A stretch of 64,000 nucleotides of DNA from assembly GCF_011405515.1 (NCBI RefSeq), contig NZ_AP022671.1, positions 124,001 to 188,000 of the forward strand. The letters run 5' to 3'. Under the pieces are notes generated by a model. The model searched no databases, had not been told where the DNA came from, and saw only the letters and a program-made list of their open reading frames with translations. This document shows, in pieces, positions 6,440 through 33,525 of this stretch. The position numbers and the translations under genes are program-made. Source of the stretch: Nitrospira sp. KM1. GTDB taxonomy: Bacteria > Nitrospirota > Nitrospiria > Nitrospirales > Nitrospiraceae. The first letter of the stretch is position 1, and every line of letters begins with the position of its first letter.

Positions 6440-6756
6440 CCGCTTCACCTCCTTATGCAGTGCCCATAGCGAGGAACAGAGATTCGGCGCGCAGTGCAGT
6501 CGTTATGCCAATGGGTATTCAATGGGTTTTCAGCGGGAAGCACTGCGAGGGTTGCGGGCTCGGCAACAGTTTCTGCTGAGCGCTTGTTCAGGGCTCAACG
6601 GGGGAATCACGAAGAAGAGAGAGCAGAGAGGTGGACGGAAGATCGTGCGGGACGTCTTCAGAGACGAAGTCGATGGTCAGGTGATGGTGAAACCGGGACG
6701 ACGCTCAATGGGAGAGCCGGTGCGACGACCGGTATGTTCCCCGTTGGGCCTGATCA
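6440..6756. other. Spacer upstream of the porin gene
   Basis: About 315 bases without a supported gene. Open frames here have no ribosome site and no recognisable product. It should carry the promoter of the porin gene, but no clear -35/-10 pair stands out. Confidence 0.4.
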
Positions 6757-7161: not shown

Positions 7162-7221
7162 GGCCGCCTCCGGAATGGTATGTGGTTCGGTAGCCTTGTA
7201 CGACAGAGGGCCGAGGTGCGT

Positions 7222-8196: not shown

Positions 8197-8201
8197 GATG
8201 A

Positions 8202-10025
<1,824 letters not shown>

Positions 10026-10029
10026 GGTC

Positions 10030-17602: not shown

Positions 17603-18673
17603 TTATGGTGAACGATCTCCGCGCGTCTGAAATAACCGGTCAAATGTGCCTCCGTCCGTAAAATGGGTCGCGATAGCACGACTCCATCCGCCGAAGACGT
17701 CATCGGCTGTGAATAGTTCAACAGGGGGAAACAACTGCGCATATTTTTTAGCCACGGAAGCCAGCCGTGGCCGATAGTGATGGGTAGCCGCCAATTCCTG
17801 GCCATGCTCGGAGTACAGGTAACTAAGATAGGCTTCGGCAAGCTTTCTCGTGCCGTGTTTGTCCACTATGACATCCAGAACGGCGACGGGTCCCTCGGTC
17901 AGGATGCTGGCTGATGGGTAGACCACGTCAAATCGATCGGCACCCAATTCCTTCTGGATCAGTGAAACCTCATGTTCGAACGTCAGCAGCGCATCCCCCA
18001 ATCCGCGTTGCGCGAAGGTCGTCGTCGCTCCACGTCCGCCGGAATCCAACACCGGCACATTGTTCAACAGTCGCCGGACGAACTCTTCTGCCTCGCGATC
18101 GGTCCCGCCTCTTGTGAGAATCTGCCCCCATGCTGCCAGATAGCTGTAACGACCGTTGCCGGATGTTTTCGGGTTGGGCATGATGACACCCACGCCGGGC
18201 TTGGTAAGGTCGGCCCAATCGCGAATGCCCTTGGGATTGTCTTTCCGGACTAGAAAGACGATCGTGGACGTCCAAGGCACGCTGCCATGCGGCAGCCGTT
18301 GTCGCCAGTTCGCCCCGAGCAATTTGCCGACATCGGAGAGAATTGTGACGTCACTTTCTTGATTCATCGTCACGACATCGGCTTCCAAACCTCCCAGAAC
18401 TGCACGCGCCTGGGCGCTTGAGCCGCCGTGAGATTGCTTGATGGTCACGGTTTGACCGGTCTTCTCCAGCCAATATTTCTCAAAAGCGGGATTGTACGCT
18501 TTATAGAATTCGCGGGACACGTCATAGGAGACGTTCAGCAATTCGTGCGGCTCTGCGCCGGCGGTTGCCGCTTCCGAGCACTGCGATGCGAGTAAGGACA
18601 ACATGAGCAGGGAGGCGGCGCGATGTATTCCCGCTGATCCGCGCCTGGGCAAAAAACGTCTCACGATGCTCAT
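17603..18673 (-). CDS. Sulfate-binding protein, second copy
   Basis: 356 aa with an N-terminal signal (hydrophobic '[14 protein letters not shown]'). It has the Sbp/CysP signatures '[20 protein letters not shown]', '[23 protein letters not shown]' and '[17 protein letters not shown]'. It is about half identical by eye to the neighbouring copy. The two genes overlap by 4 bases. The 'LASQC' stretch is not a canonical lipobox, so it is probably periplasmic. Having two Sbp proteins feed one CysTWA permease may widen ligand range (sulfate, thiosulfate). Confidence 0.92.
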
Positions 18674-19719
18674 TTGGATATCTGCAGATAGATCTTGTCG
18701 AATGTGCCACCGTCGGCAAAATGGGTCTTATTGGCGTTTTGCCAGTTGCCAAATAATTCCTGGAGCGTGAACAGCTCCACCTTGGGGAATTTTGTCTGCT
18801 TTGCCGCCACCGACTGAAGTCTCGGCCGATAGGAATGCTTGGCTGCAATCTCCTGACCTTCTTCAGAGTACAGATACTCGAGATAGGCTTGGGCGACTGC
18901 TCGGGTGCCGTGCTTATCGACCGTCTTATCGACAAGGCTCACCGTCGGTTCTGCCAAGATGCTGACCGGCGGCACGACGATATCGAATTTGTCTTTTCCC
19001 AGTCCTTCACCGCCAAGAAGAATTTCATTTTCCCAGTTGATCAGCACGTCGCCGATGCCTCGTTCCACGAACGTCGTGGTGGCTCCGCGTGCTCCCGAAT
19101 CGAGAACCGGGACATTCTTAAAAAGAAGGGACAGAAATTCCTGTGCCTTCTTCTCATCGCCGCCGGATTGTTTGAGGGCATAGCCCCATGCGGCCAGATA
19201 GTTCCAGCGTGCGACACCGGAGGTTTTGGGATTCGGTGTGATGACGGAGACGCCCGGTTTGATCAGGTCTTTCCAGTCCTTGATGCCTTTGGGGTTGCCC
19301 TTTCTGACCAAGAACGCGATGGTTGATGTGTAGGGAGCGCTGTCGTGTGGGAGGCGGCTTTGCCAGTTGGCCGGAAGCAAAGCAGCCTTTTCAGAAATTG
19401 CATCGATATCGTAGGCTAGAGCCAGCGTCACCACATCGGCTTCGAGTCCGTCGATCACGGCCCGTGCCTGCTTGCTGGATCCGCCGTGAGATTGTTTGAT
19501 CGTTACGGTTGTACCGGCCTTGGCCTTCCAATATTTTGCGAATGCCGCATTAAATTCCTGATACAGCTCGCGCGTCGGGTCATAGGACACATTGAGGAGG
19601 GAGACCGATTCGGCGGATTGAGTCGGAAGAGGCTGCCAGACGATGCCACTGATGATGAGGGCAACAGCGATGAAGTATGTAGGTGCCACGACACGATCCT
19701 TTCGTTGAGAAATAGTCAT
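18670..19719 (-). CDS. sbp: Sulfate-binding protein
   Basis: 349 aa from ATG 19719, whose ATGA overlaps the stop of the racemase-like gene; this supports it over a Met at 19752. A signal peptide ends near 'QSAES'. The mature part has '[20 protein letters not shown]', '[25 protein letters not shown]' and '[20 protein letters not shown]', the sulfate-binding signature. It delivers sulfate to CysTWA. Confidence 0.94.
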
Positions 19720-20501
19720 AGAGAATTCGCCGAGTCTACGACGTGCATGCATCCTTCATTTTGCCTGACTCTCGAACGGTCCTGACCCTGGATGGCCCGC
19801 GGTCCCAATATCCTGGCAAGCGAGGCCTGGGCCAAGAGACGCGTCGAGTCCAAGAGTGGAAGTGGTGCAGTTTCGGGAATCACGATCAGGGGCAGTTCCG
19901 TACAACCCAAAATCGCTGCGTCGTAGCCGGATGTGTGGAAGCGCTCGAGCACATCGTGAAGGAATACCTGTGAGCGTGCTGTGAAGCGGCCAGGAATGAG
20001 TTCGTTCATGATGATGTCATGAATGCGTGTCTGATCAGCCCAATCTGGAGTGGCGCATTCGATGCCCCATTTGCCGAGGTAGTCTGGATACAGGGAACTG
20101 GCCATGATCGTGCGTGTACCAAGCACGCCCACACGGCGGAAACCCCGGCGTGCGGCTTCGGCGGCCACTACCTGTGCAATGTGGAGCCAGGGCGCAGGGG
20201 TCGTCACGAATGGATAGGAGAGGTGCAGGGTATTATTCGGGCAAATGATCAGGGTCGCCCCCGCCCTGGCCAATTTGGCCGCGGACTGGGACATCAACGC
20301 CGCCACGTGAATCCAATCGTTCCGATCGACAGCGCTCAGATACGAGCGGAGCGGAAATGTATGTAAGCTGACTTCGGGATGTATGCAATTATACGAGGAC
20401 TCCATTTCTGTGCATAAGATGCGGTAGCAGAGAGCCGCCCCTTCGGCCGTTCCCGCCACGATCCCGATATGTCCGCTGCTATTGGTGAATTCACAAATCA
20501 T
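19716..20501 (-). CDS. Asp/Glu racemase superfamily protein with altered active site
   Basis: 261 aa. The fold and C-terminal active-site motif '[13 protein letters not shown]' (C200) are those of the Asp/Glu racemase superfamily. At the first active-site position the usual 'CNT' reads 'CPNNT' (C87-T91), so an Asn stands where the catalytic Cys is expected. Some relatives, such as YgeA, have Thr there and act on other amino acids. Both ends overlap neighbours by 4 bases, which locks it between a DUF2325 gene and sbp. Why a racemase-like enzyme sits in a sulfate-uptake operon is unclear. Confidence 0.8.
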
Positions 20502-20812
20502 GAAAGTGACCCGTTGTATGAATGTAGACCCAACAGGTTCGTTGTCTGTCGTACAGATGAGCCCACTGCTCGGCTTCGTTTCCGATAATAAACGGGAAGC
20601 CCCAGTCGTCCCGCCTCCACGCGTACCTTCTTGGCAAGCGCATGGTTGACCCGGTCCAGAATGAGGATGACAGCGTCAGTTGCCTTGGGAATGGCCCGGC
20701 TCAGATCGCGGGTCTTTCGTCCGCTCCAATGGTTGATAGGTGTCCGCGTATCCGCCGCGATCCCTTGCGCCAACGTTCCCACCGAATCGCCTCCCACCAC
20801 TAAGATGCTCAC
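20498..20812 (-). CDS. DUF2325 protein
   Basis: 104 aa from GTG 20812, with AAGGAGGG just upstream; earlier starts add an unlikely Cys/Arg-rich tail. The sequence 'SILVVGGDSVGTLAQGIAAD', 'GRKTRDLSRAIPKATDAVILILDRVNHALAKKVRVEA' matches DUF2325: a Rossmann-like start (VVGGD) and a central 'D.V.H' segment. The family's biochemical role is not known to me; members often sit beside metal or anion transport genes. Start of the next gene overlaps by 4 bases. Confidence 0.75.
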   Translation of the reverse strand: MSILVVGGDSVGTLAQGIAADTRTPINHWSGRKTRDLSRAIPKATDAVILILDRVNHALAKKVRVEAGRLGLPVYYRKRSRAVGSSVRQTTNLLGLHSYNGSLS

Positions 20813-20893
20813 GATCCCTCCTTCCATCCGTCCAGCGGCGGAGCGGCAGTTGCTGCCGCAGAGCTGCCGCTCCTCCGGGTTCGTCACGCCGTC

Positions 20894-21622
20894 TTACGGG
20901 GTGACATGACTTTGTCGCGGTTCCAGACCAGGTTGAATCGGCAGTGCCGAAAGAGCTTCCCGGTAACGAATATAGAGTTCTTCCCGCTGCTCGGGCGCAA
21001 ACAGCCGTCCTCCAGACTTCGCCTTGACCAGATATTCTTCCGGCTCGAAGGTGACGTCAAAAGCGGCGGAGCGTTCCGGAACGTTGGGCATCTGCCGGTC
21101 GTACTTGCCGATGTCGGGACCCGGACCGTGGCGGTCATGCACTTCACTGAGTGCGAGAATCAGTTGTGGATCCCGGACGGACAGCCATCCCGTCGTCGTT
21201 TCCTCTTCACCATGTTCGGTGACATGACTCAGATGAAAATAGACCCGCTGAGCCGCGGTTGCCTGAGCCAGCGCCTTGGAAAGCGCAGGAGCGAGCAGCG
21301 TAATTTCTTCATCCCGGAACGCTCTGGTCCGATTGGCTTCTCCGGACACCAACCGATGCACAAAATTTCGCTGTTCCCATGTCCGGACACCGCGGAGAAG
21401 CGTACCGATTTGAGTCGGCGTCAACGTGATCGGATGCGTATTATTGCCGGCATCGGGATCTCCCTCCAAGCGGACGACGTTGAGCCCCGACTCATAGATC
21501 GCCTTCTCCGGCACGACAGGCTTGCTGGCGCAAGCGGGGAGCAGGACGAAGGCGCCAAGAACCAACAAGGATGTGCGAACCTGCCATGAGAGCGTGTGAG
21601 GTGTCAGGGATCGACGGTTCAT
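20894..21622 (-). CDS. Lipoprotein of the oxyanion porin-SBP-lipoprotein trio, copy A
   Basis: 242 aa from ATG 21622, with AAGGAGG 8 bases upstream and 4-base overlap with the ModA-like gene. The lipobox is 'LLPAC'. The body holds 'TTGWLSVRDPQLILALSEVHDRHGPGPDIGKYDRQMP', which aligns well with the lipoprotein at 26907 ('TTAGWIALREPYLHLTLEHFHAQF...'). No family is recognised. The paralogue occurs in the same company (ModA-like protein and porin), so it is probably a structural or assembly partner of that uptake system. Confidence 0.8.
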   Translation of the reverse strand: MNRRSLTPHTLSWQVRTSLLVLGAFVLLPACASKPVVPEKAIYESGLNVVRLEGDPDAGNNTHPITLTPTQIGTLLRGVRTWEQRNFVHRLVSGEANRTRAFRDEEITLLAPALSKALAQATAAQRVYFHLSHVTEHGEEETTTGWLSVRDPQLILALSEVHDRHGPGPDIGKYDRQMPNVPERSAAFDVTFEPEEYLVKAKSGGRLFAPEQREELYIRYREALSALPIQPGLEPRQSHVTP

Positions 21623-22443
21623 GGTTTGACCTCCTTCCGCTGTGCAAGGCTCACATCCGATGAGGATTGGTTGAAGCCGAACTGTTTCAACTGCTCCTGG
21701 ACCTCCGGCGAGAGCAGAAACTCGGTGAAGTCCTTGGCGCCCGAGATGTTCTTTGCCGTCCATGCCGTGGCGACACCATAGCGGACGGGGTTATGCGAGT
21801 CGGGTGAGGCGGTGTCGAGAATACGGACGTTCGAGTGGCCGACGGCATCCGTTTGATACACCACGCCGACTTCGGCTTCGCCATTGGCTACGAGATCCAG
21901 TACAGCGCGTGAATGTTGACCATACACGTATTGTGATTTGAGCTGCGCATCGAGCTTGGAATGTTTGAGAAATTGCAACGCCACTTTTCCGACTGATGAG
22001 GTCTTGGGATCTCCGATGGCAATGCGGCGGACCGGCACCGTGTGCAGATCTTGGACGGATCTGACTGGTGCGGGAAGCGCGGTCGCGGTAATGAGGACGA
22101 GTGACGTAGCCGCGTAGCTCCGTTTTGTCCCCTCGAGCACGAGATGTTTTTGTTCCAGCTGGTCGATTTCCTCAAAGAGCGACGGCAGATAGACATCGAC
22201 CGGCGCGCCTTCCTCGATCTGCTTGCGCAAAGTTTGGGAAGGGCCGTAGATGACTTTGACCGTTATTTCTTTATGCTGTGCCTCGAAAAGAGGCAGCAGT
22301 TTGCGGAAGGCGTCCCGCAGGCTGTTCGCGGCGGCGATCGTCAGAGGTTCCGGTTGGGCATGGACCACAGATGTCGTGACCAGTTGCATGGCCACACCGG
22401 TCAAGATGACCAAGCTGGTAAAGATTCGTTGTAAGCGCGTCAT
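21619..22443 (-). CDS. ModA-like oxyanion-binding protein, copy A
   Basis: 274 aa with a signal peptide ending at 'VHAQP'. 'LTIAAANSLRDAFRKLLPLFEAQHKEITVKVIYGPSQTLRKQIEEGAPVDVYLP' is the ModA/molybdate-binding pattern. It shares 'VLEGTKRSYAATSLVLIT' with the protein at 26043 ('VLPGTKRTYAEVPLVLVV'). The two are paralogues of each other more than of the ModA at 29458. Located in the sulfate operon rather than by modBC, so its ligand may be sulfate, molybdate or another tetrahedral oxyanion. Confidence 0.85.
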   Translation of the reverse strand: MTRLQRIFTSLVILTGVAMQLVTTSVVHAQPEPLTIAAANSLRDAFRKLLPLFEAQHKEITVKVIYGPSQTLRKQIEEGAPVDVYLPSLFEEIDQLEQKHLVLEGTKRSYAATSLVLITATALPAPVRSVQDLHTVPVRRIAIGDPKTSSVGKVALQFLKHSKLDAQLKSQYVYGQHSRAVLDLVANGEAEVGVVYQTDAVGHSNVRILDTASPDSHNPVRYGVATAWTAKNISGAKDFTEFLLSPEVQEQLKQFGFNQSSSDVSLAQRKEVKP

Positions 22444-22476
22444 GGTATTCCTCTTAGGAGTAAAAGGTTTACATTG

Positions 22477-24117
22477 CTAGAAGAAGAATTGATATTGCAC
22501 GTTGAAGCGATTCTCGATCAAGTCACGGCCGAACCCCGCCTTGGTTTCAAACGGATATCGGTCGGGCGCGCGTCCCCCGCTTCCCATCGTGATATTGGAG
22601 TAGTCAATGACCAGCCGATTGTTGTACGTGCCATCGAAGCTGTAGTTGATGGCTGCACCGAACTCTTTGAGCAGGTCGTCCTTTTGTTTTGTCGATGGAT
22701 CCAAGACGCCATATCGAACTGCGAGTTCCAGCTTTCTGGGGATCACGTATTTGCCGGCCTGAACGTAAAATCCCCATGCCTGACCCAGACTAACCGGAGG
22801 TCCGACGGCCAGAGGACTCGTCGGAATGGTACCAAGATCGAACACCTGGGTACCGCTGTCGGCATTTCGTACGCGTTGGTGCCGATAATAGCCTTCAGCC
22901 TGGAGAGACCATCCCCGATATTTTCCGATAAAGTCCGTTTCGTATGTCTGGAAATCGTAGATGCCTCCGCCGAGTAGCCGCCCATTGAAAGCTTTGGTCA
23001 CGCGCTGACGGAAGGCACGTTCGACGATATCGGACCGTATCGAGCTCAAATAGTTTTGCCCGGGGTCGTATGCGTAGCCGAAGGCGATCGCAGCTTGGGG
23101 AGTCCGCGAATTGAGAATGTCGCCTTGCCCGTAGCCTGGATTGCCGGCGATTTTATAGAGCAAGCGAACCGTGTACATCAATTCACCCGTCATGAATCGG
23201 GTGTCGTAATTGTAGGTCCTGGTAGTCCCTGAATTCGGTGCTCCGGGGGTTCCCGTAACAGGCAGCACGTTTTGACTGACGGCGGTCCCTTCCCGCGCCA
23301 GATTGGCACCGACGCCGCCCCAAATCCCGATCGCATAGTTGAACTTGTATTGATCCTCATCACTCAGAATGCTGATACCGATGTCCCGGCTGCCTTGCAG
23401 GTTTGAGGCGAAGGCATTCTGGACAATCAGATTGTCCGCAAAACTGGAGGTGGCGATGGAACTGATGAGGGCACGATTGAACCAGACTCGCTGTTGACCG
23501 ACCTGAACGGTAGCCCATGGGATATGCCAGGAGGAGACATATGCATCGAGAAGGCTGCCACGTCCGCTGCCGCCCTCTTGATCCCAGGAGGTCTGATCGA
23601 ATGCGACGGAAAAGTTATAGCGAAAATCCGGATCGAACGCGTAACCCAGGAATTGCAGCCGAGACCGGGGCACCGAAAATTGATTGGAGTCGCTCTGCTT
23701 TCTCCATGCACGATACTCCACCTGCCCGCCGAGAATTTCAGGATTTCTTGAATCTCCAGTGGTCGACCAGGTGTCGTTATAAGTGCTGTGAGAATAACGG
23801 ACCTGTGTCAGCAACCGGAGTTTCAGAAGAAACTTTTCGCCGACGCGAATGTTCAGGCCGTTATTCACATCGACGTTGAAGTTTGGCCGTGAGAGCCGTT
23901 CTTTGTTCTCTATCACTTTCAAGCCCTTTTCGTATTCATCCTGAGTAATGATCCCTTTTAAATAGAGATATTTGAGGCCCGGATCTTCGCCCGAGTAATA
24001 CTCCCATTTGCCTTCCTTCTTGACGAATTGACCTTCTTCGACGGCCAAGCTGGAAGGGGGAGGTGTCAGCCACACGAAACCCAATGCTATGACAAACAGC
24101 AGACCGGAAATTCTCAT
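22477..24117 (-). CDS. Outer-membrane porin of the sulfate/oxyanion operon, copy A
   Basis: 546 aa from ATG 24117, with GGAGGAG 7 bases upstream. The signal peptide ends near 'SSLAVEE'. After it comes a short helical hairpin 'LKYLYLKGIITQDEYEKGLKVIEN', then a barrel of many amphipathic strands ('RSRLQFLGYAFDPDFRYNFSVAFD', 'VQVGQQRVWFNR') with a terminal 'FNVQYQFFF'. The 'GFDPDF.Y' style and hairpin resemble phosphate-selective OprO/P-type porins. Paralogous to the protein at 27644. It is the first large gene of the sulfate operon, so it probably carries oxyanions across the outer membrane. Confidence 0.85.
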   Translation of the reverse strand: MRISGLLFVIALGFVWLTPPPSSLAVEEGQFVKKEGKWEYYSGEDPGLKYLYLKGIITQDEYEKGLKVIENKERLSRPNFNVDVNNGLNIRVGEKFLLKLRLLTQVRYSHSTYNDTWSTTGDSRNPEILGGQVEYRAWRKQSDSNQFSVPRSRLQFLGYAFDPDFRYNFSVAFDQTSWDQEGGSGRGSLLDAYVSSWHIPWATVQVGQQRVWFNRALISSIATSSFADNLIVQNAFASNLQGSRDIGISILSDEDQYKFNYAIGIWGGVGANLAREGTAVSQNVLPVTGTPGAPNSGTTRTYNYDTRFMTGELMYTVRLLYKIAGNPGYGQGDILNSRTPQAAIAFGYAYDPGQNYLSSIRSDIVERAFRQRVTKAFNGRLLGGGIYDFQTYETDFIGKYRGWSLQAEGYYRHQRVRNADSGTQVFDLGTIPTSPLAVGPPVSLGQAWGFYVQAGKYVIPRKLELAVRYGVLDPSTKQKDDLLKEFGAAINYSFDGTYNNRLVIDYSNITMGSGGRAPDRYPFETKAGFGRDLIENRFNVQYQFFF

Positions 24118-24269
24118 GTCGATTCTCCTCCATGACATGGGAACTTCCGGTGGTCCGGTCAGTTCACAAACAATCGTGTCAAAAAATAATGGGATCGGTC
24201 TCCAGTTGACTGGATGACAGCGTTCCGTGTGTTAGCGTCAACAATGTTGATATGACATGACCATTTCCC

Positions 24270-24467
24270 TCACTTGAATGAATGTGAATATCCGGACTCC
24301 AGACGAACTTTTTCCTTGCGCTCGATCTGAACGACTTTGGAATCATGGACGATGATTTCCACCGATCCGAACCGCAGATCTTTCAATGCACTGAGGATTG
24401 CCAGCTCGAGCTGTTCTTGCAGGTCCTTCTTCTCTTGCCCCTGTGTTCCCTTACTCAACGTCAACAT
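24270..24467 (-). CDS. YezD-like protein (DUF2292)
   Basis: 65 aa. The motif 'LKDLRFGSVEIIVHDSKVVQIERKEKVRL' is diagnostic for DUF2292/YezD small proteins, which often precede sulfate or other sulfur-acquisition genes. A GAGGAGGAAG ribosome site is just upstream. It is the first gene after the minus-strand promoter at 24730-24758. Biochemical role not established to my knowledge; a regulatory role in sulfur uptake is inferred from context. Confidence 0.88.
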   Translation of the reverse strand: MLTLSKGTQGQEKKDLQEQLELAILSALKDLRFGSVEIIVHDSKVVQIERKEKVRLESGYSHSFK

Positions 24468-24533
24468 CTCTGCTTCCTCCTCATCACCCTGATTGATCTA
24501 GATGAATAACAATCTTTAGTGAGCGCCCCAGGC

Positions 24534-24553
24534 CCTCTCGATTAGGGGAGAGG
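24534..24553 (-). other. Hairpin in the yezD leader
   Basis: CCTCTC and GAGAGG are separated by 8 bases. It lies within the roughly 255-base leader upstream of yezD and has no T-run after it, so it is not a standard terminator. It could form part of a leader structure. No known riboswitch consensus is evident. Confidence 0.3.
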
Positions 24554-24729
24554 ACAGAAGGGTTCCAGTAAAGATGTCGGCCCGACGTTTGTCGATCGTC
24601 GAATCAACACGACGGACGATAGGGAGCGTGGTCGAGGAATCAAGGTGTCAGAAGAATGTTGGATGTTCCCGTCTCTATATAATGGATGTATATTAATCAT
24701 GACTACTCCGATAGGATTTATAAAACATC

Positions 24730-24758
24730 TTATATATAAACTTAATCTACTTTGTCAA
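24730..24758 (-). promoter_or_regulatory. Promoter for the yezD-porin-sulfate operon
   Basis: On the minus strand TTGACA (24758-24753) is followed after 16-17 bases by TATATA/ATATAA (24736-24730), a near-consensus sigma-70 promoter in an AT-rich island. The start of transcription would be near 24723, giving a leader of about 255 bases. A small inverted repeat TCC-GATA-GGA (about 24707-24716) lies at the start of the transcript and could be an operator. Confidence 0.6.
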
Positions 24759-24805
24759 CAATATTCTATCTGAACCAGTTGCTTTCATTCATGAATCAAT
24801 TAAAC

Positions 24806-24835
24806 TTGACAATAGCAATTTATAATTGATAGATA
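24806..24835 (+). promoter_or_regulatory. Promoter for the XRE-PBP regulator
   Basis: TTGACA (24806-24811) and TAGATA (24830-24835) are spaced by 18 bases. Transcription would start only a few bases before the ATG at 24846, so the message is almost leaderless. It is back-to-back with the minus-strand promoter about 50 bases away, so one bound regulator could control both directions. Confidence 0.45.
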
Positions 24836-24845
24836 ATGCCGCGTC

Positions 24846-26018
24846 ATGGGTCTCAAACATCGCCCAGAATCTCCGGAAAATTTCCAAAACAACCTTAGGA
24901 CGGTTCGAACGCATCGCGGCCTGTCGCAAGGAGATCTGGCTGGAAAGTCTGGCATTACGAGACAGGCAGTTTCATCTATCGAATCCAACGTTTACCTGCC
25001 GACGACAGCAGTGGCATTGCGACTTGCCGCTGCCCTCAGTTGTACTGTCGAAGAGTTGTTTCGTCTAGCCGATGCACCGGATCTCCTTGAAGGCCATTTC
25101 ATAGGGGAGATTCCAATGAGAAACACCGGCTCCTCACCCGTCCGCGTGAAAGTCGCGGTCGTCGGCTCAAAAACGATCGTCCGTCCAATGGCCGGATTGG
25201 GCGAAGTGCTGTCCTGCACCGTTTCAGCCGATGGCTACCTTCAGCACGACACGCTGCGATCTGGTGGTGCTTGCCGTGTGAGACTTTCACGCAATCGTCA
25301 GGAAGTTGACCAGGAAATTTCAGTGGCCGGTTGCGACCCTGCCATCTTTTTGGCCGGTGAGCACCTCAGGCGAAAAAAGGATCTGACGACCGTCATCGGA
25401 TGGTCGATGGGAAGCACGGCCGCCCTTCACGCCTTACAACGCGGCGAAGTGCATGTGGCGGGATTGCATCTGTTTGATCCAGTCAGTGGAGAGTCGAATC
25501 TTCCCTTCCTTCGAAAGGCGCTCAAAGGGTCCGGCTACGATGTCGTGACTTTCGCGACCTGGGAAGAAGGATTCGTCGTGCGAAAGGGGAATCCGAAATC
25601 CATCCGCTCGGTCGACGACCTGGCCCAACGGGATGTGTTGTTTGTGAATCGTGAGGAGGGTGCCGGCGCTCGATTGTTGCTCGACAACCGGTTGCAGCTC
25701 ACGGGAATGGTCCCCGCGGCAATTCATGGCTACGGCCGGTTTGTAGCGTCGCATTTCGAGGTTGCCCGAGCGGTGGCATCGGGGCAGGCGGATGCCGGCA
25801 TCGGAATCCGTTCGGCCGCACAGTTGTTTGATCTGGATTTCGTTCCGCTACAATCCGCCCGCTACGACCTGGTCGTCCCACGGCCCTATCTTGCGTCCCA
25901 TCCGACGCTGGCCAACCTCTTCGAGACGCTCGTCAGCCGTCCTTTCAGAAACGAGATAGAAGCACTCGGTGGCTATGACACTCGCGAGACGGGAACGCTT
26001 CATCCGCTTCGATCCTGA
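24846..26018 (+). CDS. One-component regulator: XRE-type HTH plus periplasmic-binding-protein-like domain
   Basis: 390 aa. Residues about 12-70 form an XRE HTH ('NLRTVRTHRGLSQGDLAGKSGITRQAVSSIESNVYLPTTAVALRLAAAL'). The C-terminal part, about 170-380, is a PBP-like ligand domain ('VIGWSMGSTAALHALQRGEVHVAGLHLFDPVSGE', 'VNREEGAGARLLLDNRL') of the kind found in ModE-like and tungstate/molybdate regulators. It lies between the sulfate operon (minus) and the molybdate operon (plus), so it probably senses an oxyanion and controls one or both. The ligand is inferred. Confidence 0.88.
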   Translation: MGLKHRPESPENFQNNLRTVRTHRGLSQGDLAGKSGITRQAVSSIESNVYLPTTAVALRLAAALSCTVEELFRLADAPDLLEGHFIGEIPMRNTGSSPVRVKVAVVGSKTIVRPMAGLGEVLSCTVSADGYLQHDTLRSGGACRVRLSRNRQEVDQEISVAGCDPAIFLAGEHLRRKKDLTTVIGWSMGSTAALHALQRGEVHVAGLHLFDPVSGESNLPFLRKALKGSGYDVVTFATWEEGFVVRKGNPKSIRSVDDLAQRDVLFVNREEGAGARLLLDNRLQLTGMVPAAIHGYGRFVASHFEVARAVASGQADAGIGIRSAAQLFDLDFVPLQSARYDLVVPRPYLASHPTLANLFETLVSRPFRNEIEALGGYDTRETGTLHPLRS

Positions 26019-26042
26019 CGTGTTCATATGAAGGAGCAAGGA

Positions 26043-26864
26043 ATGATGACAAAACATTCAGTGCTGTACGCATGCCTGCTCGGCGGCCTTCTGATATCGC
26101 AAGCGGCCCGGGCAGAGCAATTGATCATCGCCGCTTCTCCGAGCGTTGCAGGTGCGGTCGAAGCGCTGGGCCGGCAGTTTGAATCCACGCACCCCGACGT
26201 TCGAGTTCGCTTGTACCTGGATCCAGGTCTTGATCTTCGCCGGACAATCGCCGGGATGGAAAACAGTCCTCGAGGACAATACTTCATCGGTTCCGGACCA
26301 ATCCATCTCGTCGCGCCAGGCGGAGACGAACTGATTACGCGCCTCGAGCAGAAATATTACGTGCTGCCGGGGACGAAGCGAACGTATGCGGAGGTGCCGC
26401 TGGTCCTGGTCGTGCCGGAGGCGTTGGTCGATGCACCGACGTCGTTTGAGTCCCTGGCGCAGGACCAGTCTGTCCGAATTGCTGTGGCCGATCCGGACCT
26501 CACAGTGCTCGGTCAGAAAACCCGCGACATGCTTTTGGCGATGGGCGTATGGGGCCGGATCGAGCAACGGATCGATCGGGCAACCGACATGCGGTCCGTA
26601 CTGGACCATGTGCTCAACGGTCAAGCGGATGTCGGGATCCTGTTCGGCCCCGACGCCGTGCGTGAACGGGAACGTTTGCGGATTACGGCCCAATCAGCCG
26701 CCGGCGCCTTTCGTCCGACCGTCCATTCCATGGCCATGGAACGCTACTGTCCAAACCGGGCTCTCTGTGGCGAATTTCTCGAATTTATTCAATCGCCGGA
26801 TGCCCAGGCGATCTTGCAGCGCCTCGGCTATTCATCCCCTCGACAACAGAAAGCAGATCGTTAA
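26043..26864 (+). CDS. ModA-like oxyanion-binding protein, copy B
   Basis: 273 aa from ATG 26043, with AAGGAG 6 bases upstream. The signal peptide ends at 'QAARAEQ'. The mature part starts 'LIIAASPSVAGAVEALGRQFESTHPDVRVRLYLDPG', an extracellular solute-binding fold of the ModA superfamily, but the usual 'SSG' after the second strand is altered ('DPGLDLRRTI'). Paralogue of the protein at 21619. It begins 24 bases after the regulator gene in an apparent operon. Confidence 0.82.
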   Translation: MMTKHSVLYACLLGGLLISQAARAEQLIIAASPSVAGAVEALGRQFESTHPDVRVRLYLDPGLDLRRTIAGMENSPRGQYFIGSGPIHLVAPGGDELITRLEQKYYVLPGTKRTYAEVPLVLVVPEALVDAPTSFESLAQDQSVRIAVADPDLTVLGQKTRDMLLAMGVWGRIEQRIDRATDMRSVLDHVLNGQADVGILFGPDAVRERERLRITAQSAAGAFRPTVHSMAMERYCPNRALCGEFLEFIQSPDAQAILQRLGYSSPRQQKADR

Positions 26865-26906
26865 GCGACTCTTATTTTTATGGTCTCTGTATGAGGAGGA
26901 CTTGTG

Positions 26907-27578
26907 ATGTCAGGTCATAGGACGAGGAAATGGGTGCGAGTGGCTGGAACAGCGCAGATTTGCGCGCTGCTGATCGGTATGGCGGCCGGCGGATGCGCGA
27001 GGCTTCCGTATACGACCCAAGTGATTCATGAGGACCGCCGCGTCGTCGTCACGTTGCAACGCGAAACACGGCCGGTGCCGTATTCGCATCCTGTTCAGCT
27101 GCGTACTGACGAACTTGCCGCGGCGCTCGCCGGATTCTCATTCCGGGAAAAACAGCGTTTGCCGCTCCGTTGGTTTGCGGAGGAAGTGCCGCCCAAGCAG
27201 ATTTTCAGATCCGACGAACTCCAGGCGGTCGTTCCGTATCTTGTAGAAGGCCTTCAGAAAGCCGCTCCCGACGAGCGCGTCTATTTTCAAGTGCTGGCCC
27301 CGGGGATGAACCCCGCCTACGAGAAAGACACGACGGCCGGGTGGATCGCGCTCCGTGAACCGTACCTCCACCTGACGCTCGAGCATTTTCACGCCCAATT
27401 CCCCGTAAGGAAGTCGGAGCAATGGGACCTCCGCTATCCCGCTCTGCCGCCCGAGCCCAAGACGTACCTCCTGTACTTTGAACCGGGTCGATTTTGGGAA
27501 ACCGATCCTGTGACCGGGCAGTCTGCCGTGCAATTACGCGAGTTTTTGAAAATAGCCATTCCGGCTTCGTCGCGATGA
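26907..27578 (+). CDS. Lipoprotein of the oxyanion porin-SBP-lipoprotein trio, copy B
   Basis: 223 aa from ATG 26907, with GAGGAGGA 6 bases upstream. The lipobox region is 'GMAAGGC'. It aligns with the lipoprotein at 20894 over 'HPVQLRTDELAAAL', 'DELQAVVPYLVEGLQKAAPDERVYFQVL' and 'TTAGWIALREPYLHLTLE', and both end near a 'YLLYFEP' / 'YLVKAKSG' stretch. No known domain recognised. Positioned between copy B of the binding protein and copy B of the porin. Confidence 0.8.
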   Translation: MSGHRTRKWVRVAGTAQICALLIGMAAGGCARLPYTTQVIHEDRRVVVTLQRETRPVPYSHPVQLRTDELAAALAGFSFREKQRLPLRWFAEEVPPKQIFRSDELQAVVPYLVEGLQKAAPDERVYFQVLAPGMNPAYEKDTTAGWIALREPYLHLTLEHFHAQFPVRKSEQWDLRYPALPPEPKTYLLYFEPGRFWETDPVTGQSAVQLREFLKIAIPASSR

Positions 27579-27643
27579 CCTCCTGAGCGTTCGGAGTCTC
27601 CAACATCACTTTTCTCCATCGATCTTATTTGCGGAGGATCCCC

Positions 27644-29416
27644 ATGACTTTCTTACCATGGTTTGATCGAATTGAAGGAAGAATCAGGGCTGTCTCGGTG
27701 GCCTGGGCATTCGCCTGCCTGATGGGGATGCCGGTTCCGGGGCATGCCGTCGAATCTGGAAAACTCGTCGAGAAGGATGGTCAATACGTGTTCGTCGAGA
27801 GCATGGATCCCGCGACAAAGCTGTTGCTGGATCGTGCCTACGACAAGGGCATCATCACGCGAGACGAGCGTGATAAGGCGATCAAGGATTCAGAGGCACG
27901 CGCGTATATCATGCAGCCCAGCTTCAAGTTGTGGTACGACCGCGGCTTCAACTTCTCGATGAACGACAACGCGTTCATGCTCAAGATCCGCGGCCGCATG
28001 CAGCTGCGAGAAACGACCCGTTGGCGGAACGATGCGTGGAGAAACCCCGGGGATGCCAAGAATTTCCCTGAACTCCTCGGAGTCTTCGGTGATTACCGAG
28101 CCAACCGCTCGGAAGATTTTGCCTCGCAGTTCAATCTGCGTCGGGCACGGCTGATGTTCCTGGGACATCTGCTCAGCCCGGACTTCAAGTACTTCGTGCA
28201 AATCGGTTTCGAAACCGCCGAGAACGCACAGACGCCTGGGTCGGCCAATCTGATGGATTACTATTTCCTCAGCACGCACCTTCCGCTCCTCAATGTGCAA
28301 GTCGGGCAGTACAAGGTATTTTTCAACCGATCGCAGATCAACAATACCGCCTCCATGCAGTTTGCAGAACGCGCCCCGGTCCAGGATGCCTTTACCGCGA
28401 GCGGGTTGAACCGGCGTGATATCGGTCTCACGATCATGAACGACGACGAAGTGTATCCCGTTAATTATTACCTCGGAATCTTCAACGGGGCCGGACCGCT
28501 GTTCAACCGATACGGAAGCTACGACAGTGAAGAGGCTGTGACTGGTTGTCCCGGAGGACAGACCGGAGGCAATCCGTTTCCTTCCCCTGCCGGCTGTCCG
28601 ACCAACACGCGCAATCTCAATTCAAATTTTCGAAATGAGATCGACAAGCTTATGTATGCGGGACGATTCCAGTGGAATATCCTCGGGCGGCCCGGCTATG
28701 GTGAAGGAGACCTGGCATATTCAGAAGCGCCGCAAATGGCCGTGGGAGGCGGGCTGGCCTACAATCCCGGTATCAATACCAGCACCGATAACGCGTTTGT
28801 CGGTATCGATCTGGCGAATTTGAATTTCAGGCGTCAGTTGGCGACGTTCGGTAACGGCCGCCAGTTGGGATGGGGAGTCGTGAACTATCTGACACATGCG
28901 TTCGACGGCGTGTTCAAGTATCGCGGTTTTTCTCTTCAGGGGGAGTATTATTTTAAAAACATCGATCGGACGTTCAATGGCAGACCCTGTATACAGACTG
29001 CTGGTACAGGTGGGCCCTGTACGGCGTTCTCCCCGGGGCTGTTGGGAAATTCAATGGGGTGGTATGTGCAGAGCGGATACTATCTCGTACCGCGGAAGCT
29101 CGAAGTTGCGGCGCGATACTCGTATTGGGATCCCGACACGAACTCCGGAGGCGATTTGATCAGGCAGGTCGACGCGTCGATCAATTGGTTTCCGTTTGGG
29201 ACTTACGACTATCAATTGATGGTGACGTATACGAATATGGCGATGGGGACGGGCGGGTATGCGATCGGCAGAAGCAATCCGTTGCCGAGCACGGGAGGGT
29301 CCCAGAGTACCGTGCCTTGCCCGGCAACGTTCCCGTCGGGTTGTGTCCCGTTGGATGCCAGAGGAGGGACATTGATCGAAAATGCTATCCGTGTGCAGCT
29401 ACAAATTTTCTTTTAA
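27644..29416 (+). CDS. Outer-membrane porin of the molybdate operon, copy B
   Basis: 590 aa from ATG 27644 with GGAGGAT upstream. The signal peptide ends at 'GHAVES'. It has the same opening as copy A: 'GKLVEKDGQYVFVESMDPATKLLLDRAYDKGIITRDERDKAIKDSE', a short helical hairpin. The barrel follows ('RRARLMFLGHLLSPDFKYFVQIGFE', 'VQVGQYKVFFNRSQI'), ending 'AIRVQLQIFF'. Likely a phosphate/oxyanion-selective type porin. Two Cys pairs in extracellular-loop-like stretches (around residues 305-320 and 450-465) may form disulfides. Confidence 0.85.
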   Translation: MTFLPWFDRIEGRIRAVSVAWAFACLMGMPVPGHAVESGKLVEKDGQYVFVESMDPATKLLLDRAYDKGIITRDERDKAIKDSEARAYIMQPSFKLWYDRGFNFSMNDNAFMLKIRGRMQLRETTRWRNDAWRNPGDAKNFPELLGVFGDYRANRSEDFASQFNLRRARLMFLGHLLSPDFKYFVQIGFETAENAQTPGSANLMDYYFLSTHLPLLNVQVGQYKVFFNRSQINNTASMQFAERAPVQDAFTASGLNRRDIGLTIMNDDEVYPVNYYLGIFNGAGPLFNRYGSYDSEEAVTGCPGGQTGGNPFPSPAGCPTNTRNLNSNFRNEIDKLMYAGRFQWNILGRPGYGEGDLAYSEAPQMAVGGGLAYNPGINTSTDNAFVGIDLANLNFRRQLATFGNGRQLGWGVVNYLTHAFDGVFKYRGFSLQGEYYFKNIDRTFNGRPCIQTAGTGGPCTAFSPGLLGNSMGWYVQSGYYLVPRKLEVAARYSYWDPDTNSGGDLIRQVDASINWFPFGTYDYQLMVTYTNMAMGTGGYAIGRSNPLPSTGGSQSTVPCPATFPSGCVPLDARGGTLIENAIRVQLQIFF

Positions 29417-29457
29417 TACTTTAATACGAGGAGTCATTCGTGGGAGGAACGTCAGGT

Positions 29458-30249
29458 ATGCATGTGAGGCATCTGAGATGGGCATCTATTCTTGTGGGCG
29501 CGGTCGGGCTGGTGTGCATCGTCCTATGGCCGGTGGCCGGTGTTAGAGCCGAGGAACTCACGATCGCCGCGGCCTCGGATTTGAATTTCGCGATAAAGGA
29601 TCTCGTGGCTGAATTCGAAAAGGAATCAGGTCATCGTGTCAGGCTGTCGCTGGGATCGTCGGGAAATTTTTACGCACAAATACAAAACGGCGCCCCATTT
29701 GATCTCTATTTTTCTGCCGACATCGGTTATCCTCAAAAACTCGAAGAGGCCGGATTGGTGGTGCCAGGGTCGGTGTATCGGTATGCAGTGGGTCGCATCG
29801 TGCTCTGGACGAGTCACTCGGCCCGCCGCGACGTCTCAAAGGGACTGGAGGTGCTGAGTGATTCTGTCGTCAAGAAAATCGCAATCGCCAATCCCAAGCA
29901 CGCTCCGTATGGCCGCGCCGCAGTCGCGGCCATGCAGCATTTTCAGGTATACGATCAAGCAAAAGATCGGCTGATCTTAGGGGAGAATATTTCTCAAGCT
30001 GCCCAATTCGTGGAGTCCGGCTCTTGCGACATCGGCATTATTGCGTTGTCCCTGGCCATGGCACCGAGCATGAAGACTGCCGGAACCTATTGGGAGATTC
30101 CAGCCGAATCACATCCTCCGCTGGAACAGGGTGCGGCGATCGTGAAGACATCAACGCATCAAAAGGCCGCGAAGCAGTTTCTGGAGTTTATGCAGAGTCC
30201 GAAAGGACGGGAGATCATGACACGGTATGGGTTTACGCTTCCTCAATAG
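29458..30249 (+). CDS. modA: Molybdate-binding protein ModA
   Basis: 263 aa from ATG 29458, with GGAGGA 9 bases upstream; GTG 29440 with GAGGAG at 6 bases is an equal alternative. The signal peptide ends 'AGVRAEE'. Canonical ModA motifs: 'LTIAAASDLNFAIKDLVAEFEKESGHRVRLSLGSSGNFYAQIQNGAPFDLYFSADIGYP' and 'IANPKHAPYGRAA'. It delivers molybdate to ModB/ModC downstream. Confidence 0.92.
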   Translation: MHVRHLRWASILVGAVGLVCIVLWPVAGVRAEELTIAAASDLNFAIKDLVAEFEKESGHRVRLSLGSSGNFYAQIQNGAPFDLYFSADIGYPQKLEEAGLVVPGSVYRYAVGRIVLWTSHSARRDVSKGLEVLSDSVVKKIAIANPKHAPYGRAAVAAMQHFQVYDQAKDRLILGENISQAAQFVESGSCDIGIIALSLAMAPSMKTAGTYWEIPAESHPPLEQGAAIVKTSTHQKAAKQFLEFMQSPKGREIMTRYGFTLPQ

Positions 30250-30556
30250 AACGATGGTTCCGTGGCTGGGTGCGGCCACAATAGTCTTTGCCAGTGGCTG
30301 TTCCGACGCCGTGCAGATGACCCAGGAGACAACCACCGGTGGCGTCGTGACCTATTTATTCAAACAGGACAGGGGAGGTCCGATGGGATCGCCTCATCGA
30401 CGCGATGCGCTGCGCATGATTGAAAAGAAATGCCCGGAAGGTTACACCGTCGTTCGTGACGGGGAGGTCAAGGGGTATGCGAGTATGTCAAGCGTCGAAG
30501 GGGAAGAAGGGGACATCACAGGCAGGCGATGGGGAATTCAATTCCGCTGCAAATGA
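30227..30556 (+). CDS. Small hypothetical lipoprotein
   Basis: 109 aa, start ATG 30227 overlapping the end of modA by 23 bases; an in-frame ATG at 30254 may be the true start. The N-terminus 'WLGAATIVFASGCSD' has a lipobox. The rest is small, polar and ends '...RWGIQFRCK'. I do not recognise a family. Co-transcribed with modA by position. Confidence 0.6.
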   Translation: MGLRFLNRTMVPWLGAATIVFASGCSDAVQMTQETTTGGVVTYLFKQDRGGPMGSPHRRDALRMIEKKCPEGYTVVRDGEVKGYASMSSVEGEEGDITGRRWGIQFRCK

Positions 30557-30645
30557 AGGTCAGTTCCAAACCCTTTGATCGGAAGCACGTCGTTGATTGA
30601 ATTGGTAAGGCAAGGACGTATTCTCAATAACCACATGAGGTCATC

Positions 30646-30849
30646 ATGAAACTCAGCGCACGCAATCAATTCCAAGGCACCGTGACACGTATTACGGAAG
30701 GACAGGCCATGGCTGAAGTCATCGTCAAGGTAGGATCGCTCGAATTCGTGGCGGCGATCACCGATGGATCGGTCAAGCAAATGGGCTTGAAGGTGAACGA
30801 TGGGGTTACCGTCGCCGTCAAGGCGACCGAGGTCATGATCGGCAAATAG
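30646..30849 (+). CDS. mop: Molybdenum-pterin/molybdate-binding Mop protein (single TOBE)
   Basis: 67 aa. 'MKLSARNQFQGTVTRITEGQAMAEVIVKV' and 'VAAITDGSVKQMGLKVNDGVTVAVKATEVMIGK' is a complete Mop/molbindin domain. Such proteins bind molybdate in oligomers and act as an internal store or carrier. It lies between modA and modB. Confidence 0.93.
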   Translation: MKLSARNQFQGTVTRITEGQAMAEVIVKVGSLEFVAAITDGSVKQMGLKVNDGVTVAVKATEVMIGK

Positions 30850-31050
30850 CCCGTCGTTGACTTCCATATCGCCACTTTCTACCATGGCGCCGCATAAGAA
30901 CGGCGGAGAGACTCATGATCACGCGATTCGGCCTCGGGAAACTGAATGCTAAATCCATGATTACGTAAATTGAGACAGTCGTGAGCCGATCGACGCTTTT
31001 AGTGGTCAGGCGAGCGGCTGACACTCTTCGGCGGCTGTGAAGGCGGTGTG

Positions 31051-31725
31051 ATGGACTGGACGGCGATCTGGGTGACCTTTAAGTTGGCGAGCCTGACGTC
31101 GGCCGCCCTCGTCATTGTCGGCTTGCCGATTGCGTACTGGCTGACATTTTCAAAATGGCGTGGCAAGTTTCTCATCGAGTCCGTTGTTGCTCTCCCTTTG
31201 GTACTACCTCCAACCGTTCTTGGGTTCTATATCCTTGTCGCCATCGGTCCGTATAGCCCCGTCGGCCGCCTCTACACCGATATTGTCGGTCACCCGTTGC
31301 CCTTCAGTTTTCAGGGGCTGCTGTTCGCCTCGATTCTCTACAGCCTTCCATTTGCGGTGCAGCCGTTCGCCTCGGCATTCGAGCATGTGGACCGAAAGCT
31401 GATCGAAACGTCTTGGACGCTGGGCGCCTCAAAACTCGCGACGTTCTTCAGACTCATTTGTCCATTATCCAAGGCCGGCCTCGTCACCGGAATCGTGCTC
31501 AGTTTTGCGCACACGCTCGGAGAGTTCGGCGTCGTCCTGATGGTAGGAGGAAACATAGAAGGGCAGACCAGAACCGTTTCCATTGACATCTACGACGAGG
31601 TGCAGGCCTTGAACTACGGAAGCGCAGCGAAGACAGCCCTCTTGTTGCTCGTCGTTTCGTATGGTGTGCTGCTCTTGGTCTATGCCATGAATCGAAAGGT
31701 GTGGGCGGCATGGCCGAGGAGATGA
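31051..31725 (+). CDS. modB: Molybdate ABC transporter permease ModB
   Basis: 224 aa. Five to six membrane helices; typical ModB stretches 'PIAYWLTFSKWRGK', 'ALPLVLPPTVLGFY', the coupling loop 'LIETSWTLGASKLATFFRLICPL' and 'FAHTLGEFGVVLMVGGNI'. ATG 31051 is chosen over GTG 31048. Its end overlaps modC. Confidence 0.93.
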   Translation: MDWTAIWVTFKLASLTSAALVIVGLPIAYWLTFSKWRGKFLIESVVALPLVLPPTVLGFYILVAIGPYSPVGRLYTDIVGHPLPFSFQGLLFASILYSLPFAVQPFASAFEHVDRKLIETSWTLGASKLATFFRLICPLSKAGLVTGIVLSFAHTLGEFGVVLMVGGNIEGQTRTVSIDIYDEVQALNYGSAAKTALLLLVVSYGVLLLVYAMNRKVWAAWPRR

Positions 31726-32813
31726 TCGTTGACATCACCAAGACGTTTCCTGGACGACCGCCTATTCGCGCCTCCTTTCGGTATGTGCTGGAAGGCTCGA
31801 CCGTTCTCATACTCTTCGGCCCGTCAGGTTCAGGGAAAACCACCATCCTACGTTCCATCGCCGGACTTGAGCGACCGGAGCGCGGAATAATCCGATTCCA
31901 GTCGGACATATGGTTGGACAATGAAGCGGCGTTGGAAGTGTCGCCTCAAGATCGCCGTGTCGGCTATATGCCCCAGGACTATGGGCTGTTTCCGAATTAT
32001 TCAGTGACCGGAAATATCGCGTATGGCCTGGCCGGAATGCGTGCGGCTGATCGGGAAAAGCGCGTGCAAGACATGTTGAGGTTGTTTCATCTGCGCGAGT
32101 TGGAACATGCGAGACCGCGGGAATTGTCGGGCGGGCAACAGCAGCGGGTCGCGCTGGCCAGAGCTGTGGCGACCAAGCCCCGATTATTATTGTTGGACGA
32201 ACCGTTGTCGGCGCTGGATACACCGACTCGATTGCTGATGCGAGGCGAATTGAGAACGCAATTGAAACATCTGGCCCTGCCATCCATCATTGTCACGCAT
32301 GATTGGGCGGAAGCGCTGACCTTGGGCGATGTCATGGCGGTCATGCATGAAGGGACGGTGCTGCAGGTGGGGTCACCGCACGAGGTGTTCAGCCGGCCTG
32401 TCAATGCAGAGGTGGCCAGGATCGTGGGAGTTGAGACGGTTGTTCGCGGACATCTGACGGACGTGCAAAATGGACTGGCGACTGTCCTCGTCGGAGATGT
32501 GGCACTGACGGCGATTGCGGAATCGCACATCGGCCCCGATGTGTTCGTCTGCATCAGAGCGGAGGACGTAACTCTCCAACCGGTCAGCGCAGGTGTGACC
32601 AGCGCCCGTAATCACCTCGACGGACGTGTGCGCGATGTGACGACGACCGGGGCCTTGGCAAAAGTCACGGTGGACTGCGGATTTCTTGTCAGCGCACTTG
32701 TCACGAAATCGGCGATGGAGGAATTGGGGTTGGAAGCAGGTTCATCGGTCCAGGCAGCCGTCAAGGCTGGAGCAGTTCATCTCGTGCCGCGTCGCGACCA
32801 TTCGGAGCATTAA
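31710..32813 (+). CDS. modC: Molybdate ABC transporter ATPase ModC
   Basis: 367 aa from ATG 31710 (AAGGTG 8 bases upstream); GTG 31701 is possible. Walker A GPSGSGKTT, Q-loop 'VGYMPQDYGLFPNYSV', signature LSGGQQQR, Walker B LLLLDEPLSALD, H-loop 'IVTHDW'. The C-terminus has a TOBE/Mop domain ('NHLDGRVRDVTTTGALAKVTVDCG'), as in ModC. It converges on and overlaps by 4 bases the end of the first TraT-like gene. Confidence 0.93.
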   Translation: MAEEMIVDITKTFPGRPPIRASFRYVLEGSTVLILFGPSGSGKTTILRSIAGLERPERGIIRFQSDIWLDNEAALEVSPQDRRVGYMPQDYGLFPNYSVTGNIAYGLAGMRAADREKRVQDMLRLFHLRELEHARPRELSGGQQQRVALARAVATKPRLLLLDEPLSALDTPTRLLMRGELRTQLKHLALPSIIVTHDWAEALTLGDVMAVMHEGTVLQVGSPHEVFSRPVNAEVARIVGVETVVRGHLTDVQNGLATVLVGDVALTAIAESHIGPDVFVCIRAEDVTLQPVSAGVTSARNHLDGRVRDVTTTGALAKVTVDCGFLVSALVTKSAMEELGLEAGSSVQAAVKAGAVHLVPRRDHSEH

Positions 32814-33514
32814 AAGGGACCGACCAGACCGGCAGCCAGTTTTTCACGGATGATCGGAGTCGCTTCCTCGATGTTCGGTTCCTTTTGCAGGACGTGCGCG
32901 ACCGATCGCTTCGTGTAGACTTTTGGGGGAAGATTGCGGTCCTGATTCTTTTCCGTTACCAAAACGTCGGCAATGCAGATATAGAGCGTACCTTCCGGCT
33001 TTGGCGGGGCGGCCATACCCATTCCGCCCATGCCGAATGCGGCTCCTCCTCTCCCGGCCATGGCTCGACGCATCATGGCGTTCATCTCTGGGAGATTGAC
33101 CATGGGATTGCCCCCGAAAGCCGCCGCCATGCCGGCCATGTCGAAGCCCGTACTGCCTAATGTTGGAAGAGGAGCGCCTCCGCTTCCGATGCCGGCGCCA
33201 AATCCGGATTTCACGATCATTTCCGGTGTCATGTTCTCTGCCCCCTTGTGACAATACACCACTTGTGCTTGCAACCAGTAGGCCGCCCGTTCTGGATCGG
33301 GTACGAGGGTGTAGCCTTTAGATCCCAGTCTGGCTGAGATGTCGGTCGGAGTAGCCGATTGATTCTCGGACGTGTTGCGCAATTGAACATAGAGCGTCCG
33401 TTCGGCGCTGGGCGGGAGCATGATCGAACCGTCGTTCATCAGGCCGGAACGGATGACGTTACTGCAGCCTGTGGCAAAGATGAAAAGAAAGATCAGAAGC
33501 AGTCGAAATGACAT
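32810..33514 (-). CDS. TraT-like outer-membrane lipoprotein, copy 1
   Basis: 234 aa from ATG 33514. The lipobox is 'FIFATGC'. The family pattern 'RSGLMNDGSIMLPPSAERTLYVQLRNTSENQ' and 'GSKGYTLVPDPERAAYWLQAQVVY' fits TraT (complement resistance / surface exclusion) proteins. A central Gly/Met-rich stretch replaces the usual glycine-zipper part. It follows its paralogue after 11 bases. TraT-like lipoproteins insert in the outer membrane; the native role outside plasmids is unknown. Confidence 0.82.
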   Translation of the reverse strand: MSFRLLLIFLFIFATGCSNVIRSGLMNDGSIMLPPSAERTLYVQLRNTSENQSATPTDISARLGSKGYTLVPDPERAAYWLQAQVVYCHKGAENMTPEMIVKSGFGAGIGSGGAPLPTLGSTGFDMAGMAAAFGGNPMVNLPEMNAMMRRAMAGRGGAAFGMGGMGMAAPPKPEGTLYICIADVLVTEKNQDRNLPPKVYTKRSVAHVLQKEPNIEEATPIIREKLAAGLVGPF

Positions 33515-33525
33515 CGTCAATAGCG

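Follow-up and report, generated by a model that had tools for sequence, protein, structure and literature searches.

How trace oxyanions pass the outer membrane is poorly known, and a locus in the complete 4.51 Mb genome of Nitrospira sp. KM1 raises the question of whether this genus devotes a set of envelope proteins to the task. Within the window (the whole 64,000-nucleotide stretch of that genome analysed here), a single regulator gene is flanked by two versions of a gene trio, each encoding a porin, a ModA-like protein and a lipoprotein. The initial annotation had read this trio as a dedicated envelope module for oxyanion uptake, with copy A joined to a sulfate transporter and copy B to ModABC, and could match it to no described system. 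Homology, a fixed operon structure, co-occurrence and the partner importers make it probable, in our view, that the trio is an outer-membrane uptake module serving oxyanion ATP-binding cassette (ABC) importers in Nitrospira, in two specialised versions. Because nitrite oxidoreductase is a molybdoenzyme, and because Nitrospira are major nitrite oxidisers and include comammox organisms, molybdate supply is central to nitrification. The module is a testable candidate for the outer-membrane step, and its matched A and B versions allow specificity to be compared. The core of the locus is laid out as follows.

20894 to 21622, minus strand: lipoprotein of copy A (LIP-A), 242 residues, lipobox LLPAC-A, of no known family (open reading frame, Pfam and NCBIfam searches, and an AlphaFold2 model with a predicted local distance difference test score, pLDDT, of 87.5 and no PDB match)
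21619 to 22443, minus strand: ModA-like protein of copy A, SBP_bac_11, 156.6 bits against TIGR01256, equivalents of Ser12, Ser39 and Tyr170 kept
22477 to 24138, minus strand: porin of copy A, 553 residues ending in Phe, sharing 39% identity with the porin of copy B
24139 to 24845, no strand: divergent control region, in which a GTCAACAAT element resembles a promoter reading towards porin A and a TTGACA element one reading towards the regulator
24846 to 26018, plus strand: regulator combining a Cro/C1-type helix-turn-helix (HTH_3) with a PBP_like domain (PF12727) of the kind seen in MoeA-fused and molybdate-linked proteins
26028 to 26864, plus strand: ModA-like protein of copy B, which has lost most of the molybdate pocket and carries a conserved insertion (about 12 residues)
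26904 to 27578, plus strand: lipoprotein of copy B (LIP-B), lipobox AGGC-A
27629 to 29416, plus strand: porin of copy B, Porin_O_P, with a weak ExtI match and a model resembling OprP/OprO

All six trio genes lie where the initial annotation had placed them, the copy-B starts given there (26043, 26907 and 27644) being plausible alternative starts of the open reading frames at 26028-26864, 26904-27578 and 27629-29416. For copy A, the mechanically called frame at 20894-21763 overlaps the ModA-like gene, and the lipoprotein proper occupies 20894-21622. The regulator runs divergently from copy A and in the same direction as copy B. Copy A reads porin, ModA-like protein, lipoprotein, and then DUF2325-like, Asp/Glu racemase-family, two sulfate-type binding protein and CysT/W/A-type genes; copy B reads regulator, ModA-like protein, lipoprotein, porin, and then ModA, a small putative lipoprotein, ModB and ModC. 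The core genes of both copies are separated by short intergenic gaps.

Local alignment scores, compared with those of 300 shuffles, bear out the claim that all three members form paralogous pairs. The porins scored 876 against a shuffled 41.4 +/- 5.0 (214/540 positions identical) and the ModA-like proteins 254 against 33.9 +/- 5.3 (73/230 identical), while the lipoproteins, at 162 against 33.5 +/- 5.1 (45/165 identical), stand 25 standard deviations above chance. Duplication of the trio as one unit is only a possibility: the tree gave no support for uniting lipoproteins A and B (66/10 without long rows), yet the approximately unbiased test did not reject their union (p-AU 0.33), so that joint duplication and separate recruitment would both be compatible with the lipoprotein tree.

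The trio recurs throughout the genus. A porin scan of 84,980 species genomes, one per species, returned 70 loci, all titled Nitrospira, Nitrospiraceae or Nitrospirota except for one metagenome-assembled genome labelled Nitrosospira, possibly by mislabelling; the matches come from across Nitrospira, with N. defluvii and N. moscoviensis among them. Neighbouring genes were found by six-frame hidden Markov model searches, counting only porins flanked on each side by 2.2 kb or more (n=64). In every one of these 64 loci a lipoprotein gene lies beside the porin on the same strand, and in 63 a ModA-like gene does too. Thirty-seven have the B order (ModA-like B and lipoprotein upstream of the porin), 26 the A order (ModA-like A and lipoprotein downstream), and one is of a third type without a ModA-like gene. 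The differing gene order that had been remarked on in the two copies is fixed across Nitrospira, and the trio is present at essentially every Nitrospira locus tested. These loci are related by descent, and their counts measure conservation, not independent events. In a second set, 60 genomes of the family that may overlap with the species scan, 60 of 62 porin matches have a same-strand lipoprotein no more than 2.5 kb away; the two misses are fragments, one of which reaches a contig end. The porin was found in 38 of these 60 genomes and the lipoprotein family in 59.

What joins the trio to oxyanions is the genes that follow it. In the window these are, behind copy B and then behind copy A:

29440 to 30249, plus strand: canonical molybdate-binding protein ModA, 216.8 bits against TIGR01256
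30227 to 30556, plus strand: small putative lipoprotein, kept in most copy-B operons (a similar one adjoins another lipoprotein-family member at locus L031)
31048 to 31725, plus strand: ModB permease, TIGR02141 227.1 bits, over the cut-off
31701 to 32813, plus strand: ModC-type ATPase with a TOBE domain
20498 to 20887, minus strand: DUF2325-like protein, frequent downstream of LIP-A
19716 to 20501, minus strand: Asp/Glu racemase-family protein, frequent downstream of LIP-A
18670 to 19752, minus strand: sulfate-type binding protein, SBP_bac_11, a relative of 17603-18673
17603 to 18673, minus strand: sulfate-binding protein, TIGR00971 430.2 bits
16742 to 17596, minus strand: CysT-type permease, conserved behind copy A in other genomes
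15821 to 16729, minus strand: CysW-type permease
14745 to 15824, minus strand: CysA-type ATPase, TOBE_3, with a CysA_C_terminal match just under its cut-off

Copy B runs without a break into a complete ModABC operon (binding protein, permease and ATPase together at 29440-32813), as had been proposed. Copy A is likewise continuous in direction with the sulfate transporter, but the DUF2325-like and racemase-family genes lie between them. Among B-type loci with more than 5 kb of downstream sequence, 37 of 38 hold lipoprotein, porin, ModA and ModB/C, and at the exception (L056) the lipoprotein match is split. Behind copy A, also at 38 loci, a sulfate ABC importer was found in 14 and an SsuABC-like (sulfonate-type) importer in seven, with an SsuA-type protein over the TIGR01728 cut-off; no other ABC importer type was identified behind copy A at these loci. 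In the remaining 17, a histidine kinase and/or a sigma54-type regulator follows, and seven of these loci also have a divergent relative of the sulfate-binding proteins. The importers behind copy A are thus of the CysTWA-Sbp sulfate and SsuABC sulfonate kinds; in their textbook versions, these systems are not known to have a porin, a lipoprotein and a ModA-like protein of their own in the operon.

The ModA-like proteins are SBP_bac_11 relatives of the canonical ModA that, with ModB and ModC-type genes, follows copy B; they differ from it in forming a separate branch and in being additional to the operon's own ModA. Against the TIGR01256 cut-off of 62.5, copy A scores 156.6, copy B 68.1 and the operon ModA 216.8, and in a tree the A and B proteins together split from E. 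coli ModA, three PDB ModA structures and Nitrospira ModA (97/93 support). At the positions that we take to be the molybdate pocket (E. coli Ser12, Ser39, Ala125, Val152 and Tyr170), ModA-like A keeps Ser12, Ser39 and Tyr170 and has Val125 and Ser152 instead of Ala and Val, together with Asn11. In a separate observation, a ModA-like protein 63% identical to that of copy A lies at 8992-9897 of locus L032, directly before a CysA-like ATPase, with neither porin nor lipoprotein.

The copy-B porin matches PF07396 (Porin_O_P) at 42.5 bits against a cut-off of 20.9; the copy-A porin has no Pfam match of its own. An AlphaFold2 model of the copy-B porin built from 30 sequences (mean pLDDT 66.9, with barrel strands mostly higher) retrieved OprP (E 3.7e-13) and OprO (1.0e-12) as the top PDB matches in Foldseek, with template-modelling (TM) scores, normalised to the target, of 0.66 and 0.65. 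All 76 members of the porin family end in Phe, and they carry on average about 36 Arg, of which about a dozen are invariant. The copy-B porin thus resembles the phosphate and polyphosphate porins OprP and OprO of Pseudomonas aeruginosa in its Pfam family, its best model match, its Arg richness and its place near a nutrient-anion importer. It differs from them in that the Nitrospira porins are linked to molybdate and sulfur importers, not phosphate, and in having an extra N-terminal region before the barrel as well as lipoprotein and ModA-like companions. Against the ExtI model (NF040900) it reached 30.7 bits, far below the equivalog cut-off of 150. ExtI of Geobacter sulfurreducens, connected with selenite and tellurite reduction, is likewise a Porin_O_P-type outer-membrane protein implicated with oxyanions, and the 2018 paper on it states that uptake of selenite or tellurite had not been linked to any porin before; its gene, however, sits in a cytochrome cluster according to that paper, and the parts of the text consulted mention no such lipoprotein and ModA-like pair (PMC5877670). 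Closer in lineage is FmdC, the amide/urea porin of comammox Nitrospira (PMC11064514): there too, within this genus, a nutrient-specific porin is paired with an ABC importer, but for another nutrient; a barrel beside a lipoprotein pair near UrtA at locus L029 was not identified as FmdC.

The third member is the least familiar. No Pfam or NCBIfam model matched the lipoprotein at E<=0.01, and a PDB profile search gave a best E of 0.7. With the LIP-A model, the best PDB match had an E of 0.15 and a TM of about 0.1 in Foldseek and a Z of 3.5 in VIA-align; a START/PRELI-like fold was considered and set aside, its matches being too weak (Foldseek E 0.15, TM about 0.12; VIA-align Z 3.5). The lipobox Cys is invariant and an Ala at +2 nearly so (56 sequences), with G-C-A in 61 of 78 lipobox matches. 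The +2 sorting rule for lipoproteins, which comes from E. coli, predicts a place for this protein in the outer membrane, on its periplasmic side. In a sample of the phylum, the family was present in 25/25 Nitrospirales genomes and 0/93 others.

Lipoproteins A and B form two well-supported clades, and there are 11 paralogues in this genome, most of them beside porins. A third copy, nested in clade B, forms a porin-lipoprotein pair without a ModA-like gene (locus L030, positions 4363001-4383000 of the same genome, genes at 4260-5477, 6568-7392, 7417-9279 and 9379-10056). Its neighbours code for a TOBE-domain protein and for two regulators, one a second HTH-PBP_like protein and the other a PhoB-like response regulator; L078 has a matching locus. 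Elsewhere, paralogues stand beside Porin_O_P porins with PstS-like proteins (L026, L027), next to a PstS-like gene and a further putative barrel (L031), or as a tandem pair close to a putative barrel and to the gene for the urea-binding protein UrtA (L029, 8919-14054). In genomes that lack the porin, the best-conserved lipoprotein lies behind genes for tatC, a repeat protein and a cyclophilin, names that come from reading the sequences, and the same repeat-protein neighbour recurs at L024 (lipoprotein at 9928-10668), in the KM1 genome a place remote from any porin. This tatC/cyclophilin locus is conserved across the family (L024 and L106-L125), and its copy is possibly the ancestral one. A sister family pairs an OprP-like porin convergently with a lipoprotein. 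Separately, the lipoproteins of L025, L028, L029 and L031 carry a C-terminal coiled-coil-like extension that is absent from the trio members.

Nearly all loci carry, ahead of the regulator, a TTGACA element whose flanks are also conserved (gACATaATAcTTGACAt), and in some it is a near-perfect palindrome, as in L076 (ATACTTGACAAAATGACAAGTAT). The regulator's own promoter holds a ATACTTGACA-like palindrome, a similar one (CAATACTTGACATCATTGTCATGTATTG) precedes the third-copy lipoprotein, and towards porin A the divergent region has another conserved element, GTCAACAAT. We take the TTGACA element to be a candidate operator of the regulator. An Rfam search at 14-36 kb of the window gave no RNA element such as the Moco motif.

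An outer-membrane role in molybdate uptake is supported by a related clade in which the trio-B slot holds an Alginate_exp-family barrel. At eight loci (L090, L096, L098-L100 and L102-L104), a single barrel of a different family, not the trio, lies between regulator and ModA; that of L096, the one tested, matches Alginate_exp at 2e-56. It has the same type of N-terminal segment as the trio porins (GELVQKDGKWEF...ITDEEY). We read it as a putative non-homologous replacement of the outer-membrane step, the absence of trio B elsewhere in these genomes having been judged through the porin scan only.

Taken as an uptake module, the trio would work as follows. The OprP/OprO-like, Arg-rich porin would pass the anion through the outer membrane; the lipoprotein would partner the porin, for example by docking or gating; and the ModA-like protein would collect the anion in the periplasm or pass it to the neighbouring binding protein and ABC transporter. 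Copy A would carry sulfate or sulfonate and copy B molybdate, and the HTH-PBP_like regulator is probably a molybdate sensor that controls the copy-B operon. We infer that anions pass and that the three proteins act as partners, and likewise what the lipoprotein does and which ligand the regulator binds. A wider and rather doubtful extension would make a family of Nitrospirales outer-membrane lipoproteins, of a fold without a PDB match, porin partners in general, each nutrient channel (molybdate, sulfate/sulfonate, PstS-linked, urea-linked) having its own paralogue, in complexes of porin, lipoprotein and binding protein that hand anions to the ABC importer; we know of no description of such substrate channelling across the periplasm for passive porins.

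Several observations weigh against an uptake module. The porin's net charge is near zero despite its Arg richness. Judging by its model, the lipoprotein fold appears to resemble nothing solved, and three members of the family (L024, L025 and L028) have no porin. Since all genomes belong to one lineage, the conserved order is partly common descent. In ModA-like B, Gly replaces Ser39 in 32/44 sequences, Leu stands at 125 in 40/44 and Phe at Tyr170 in 28/44; the operon's own ModA likewise varies at 12, 125 and 170, so the pocket test is not strict. With its pocket mostly lost, ModA-like B is not safely named an oxyanion binder, and may bind another ligand or none. The dedicated envelope module of the initial annotation is accordingly upheld in part: genomic context supports it strongly, but the lipoprotein is not specific to the trio, the third copy lacks a ModA-like gene and the pocket of ModA-like B is mostly gone.

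In an unlikely alternative, the trio serves envelope sensing or assembly and not uptake: ModA-like B and the lipoprotein would report on anion status or assist in assembling the barrel, and the porin would be a general channel. Such a sensing or assembly role would explain why ModA-like B is conserved, with a clade-specific insertion, though most of its molybdate pocket is lost, why 17 of 38 copy-A loci precede a histidine kinase and/or sigma54 regulator and not an ABC importer, and why the lipoprotein also occurs without porins. Yet all the ABC importers beside either version are oxyanion importers, and the filling of the trio-B slot by one unrelated barrel in one clade fits uptake better. 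The altered B pocket, together with Asn11, Val125 and Ser152 in the A-type pocket, could also mean that the trio brings in a different anion from the one that the importer mainly handles, such as tungstate, selenate, thiosulfate or a complexed form, and so widens the import range. The occurrence of copy A with both sulfate and sulfonate importers is consistent with this, as is the porin's weak match to the selenite/tellurite porin ExtI (PMC5877670); no metabolism gene for such an anion was noticed beside the modules, however, and each version retains its importer partner type, which makes this quite improbable. That generic porins and lipoproteins are merely co-located by common descent, without joint function, is very hard to credit: all loci do come from one order and are not independent, but the same three families are kept together in two versions of different order, the third copy retains porin, lipoprotein and regulator type, and the sister family also pairs an OprP-like porin with a lipoprotein.

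The uptake module itself consists of parts of known kinds (porin, substrate-binding-protein fold, ABC importer); its lipoprotein family, near-universal in the sampled genomes of the family, and its arrangement appear undescribed in the literature searched. In line with the initial failure to match it, work on Nitrospira molybdate transport, porins and porin-lipoprotein operons gave, by title and abstract, no published description of the module. Next to the mod operon and convergent with it, two adjacent TraT-family lipoproteins (PF05818) lie at 32810-34299 of the window, a position kept in many Nitrospira.

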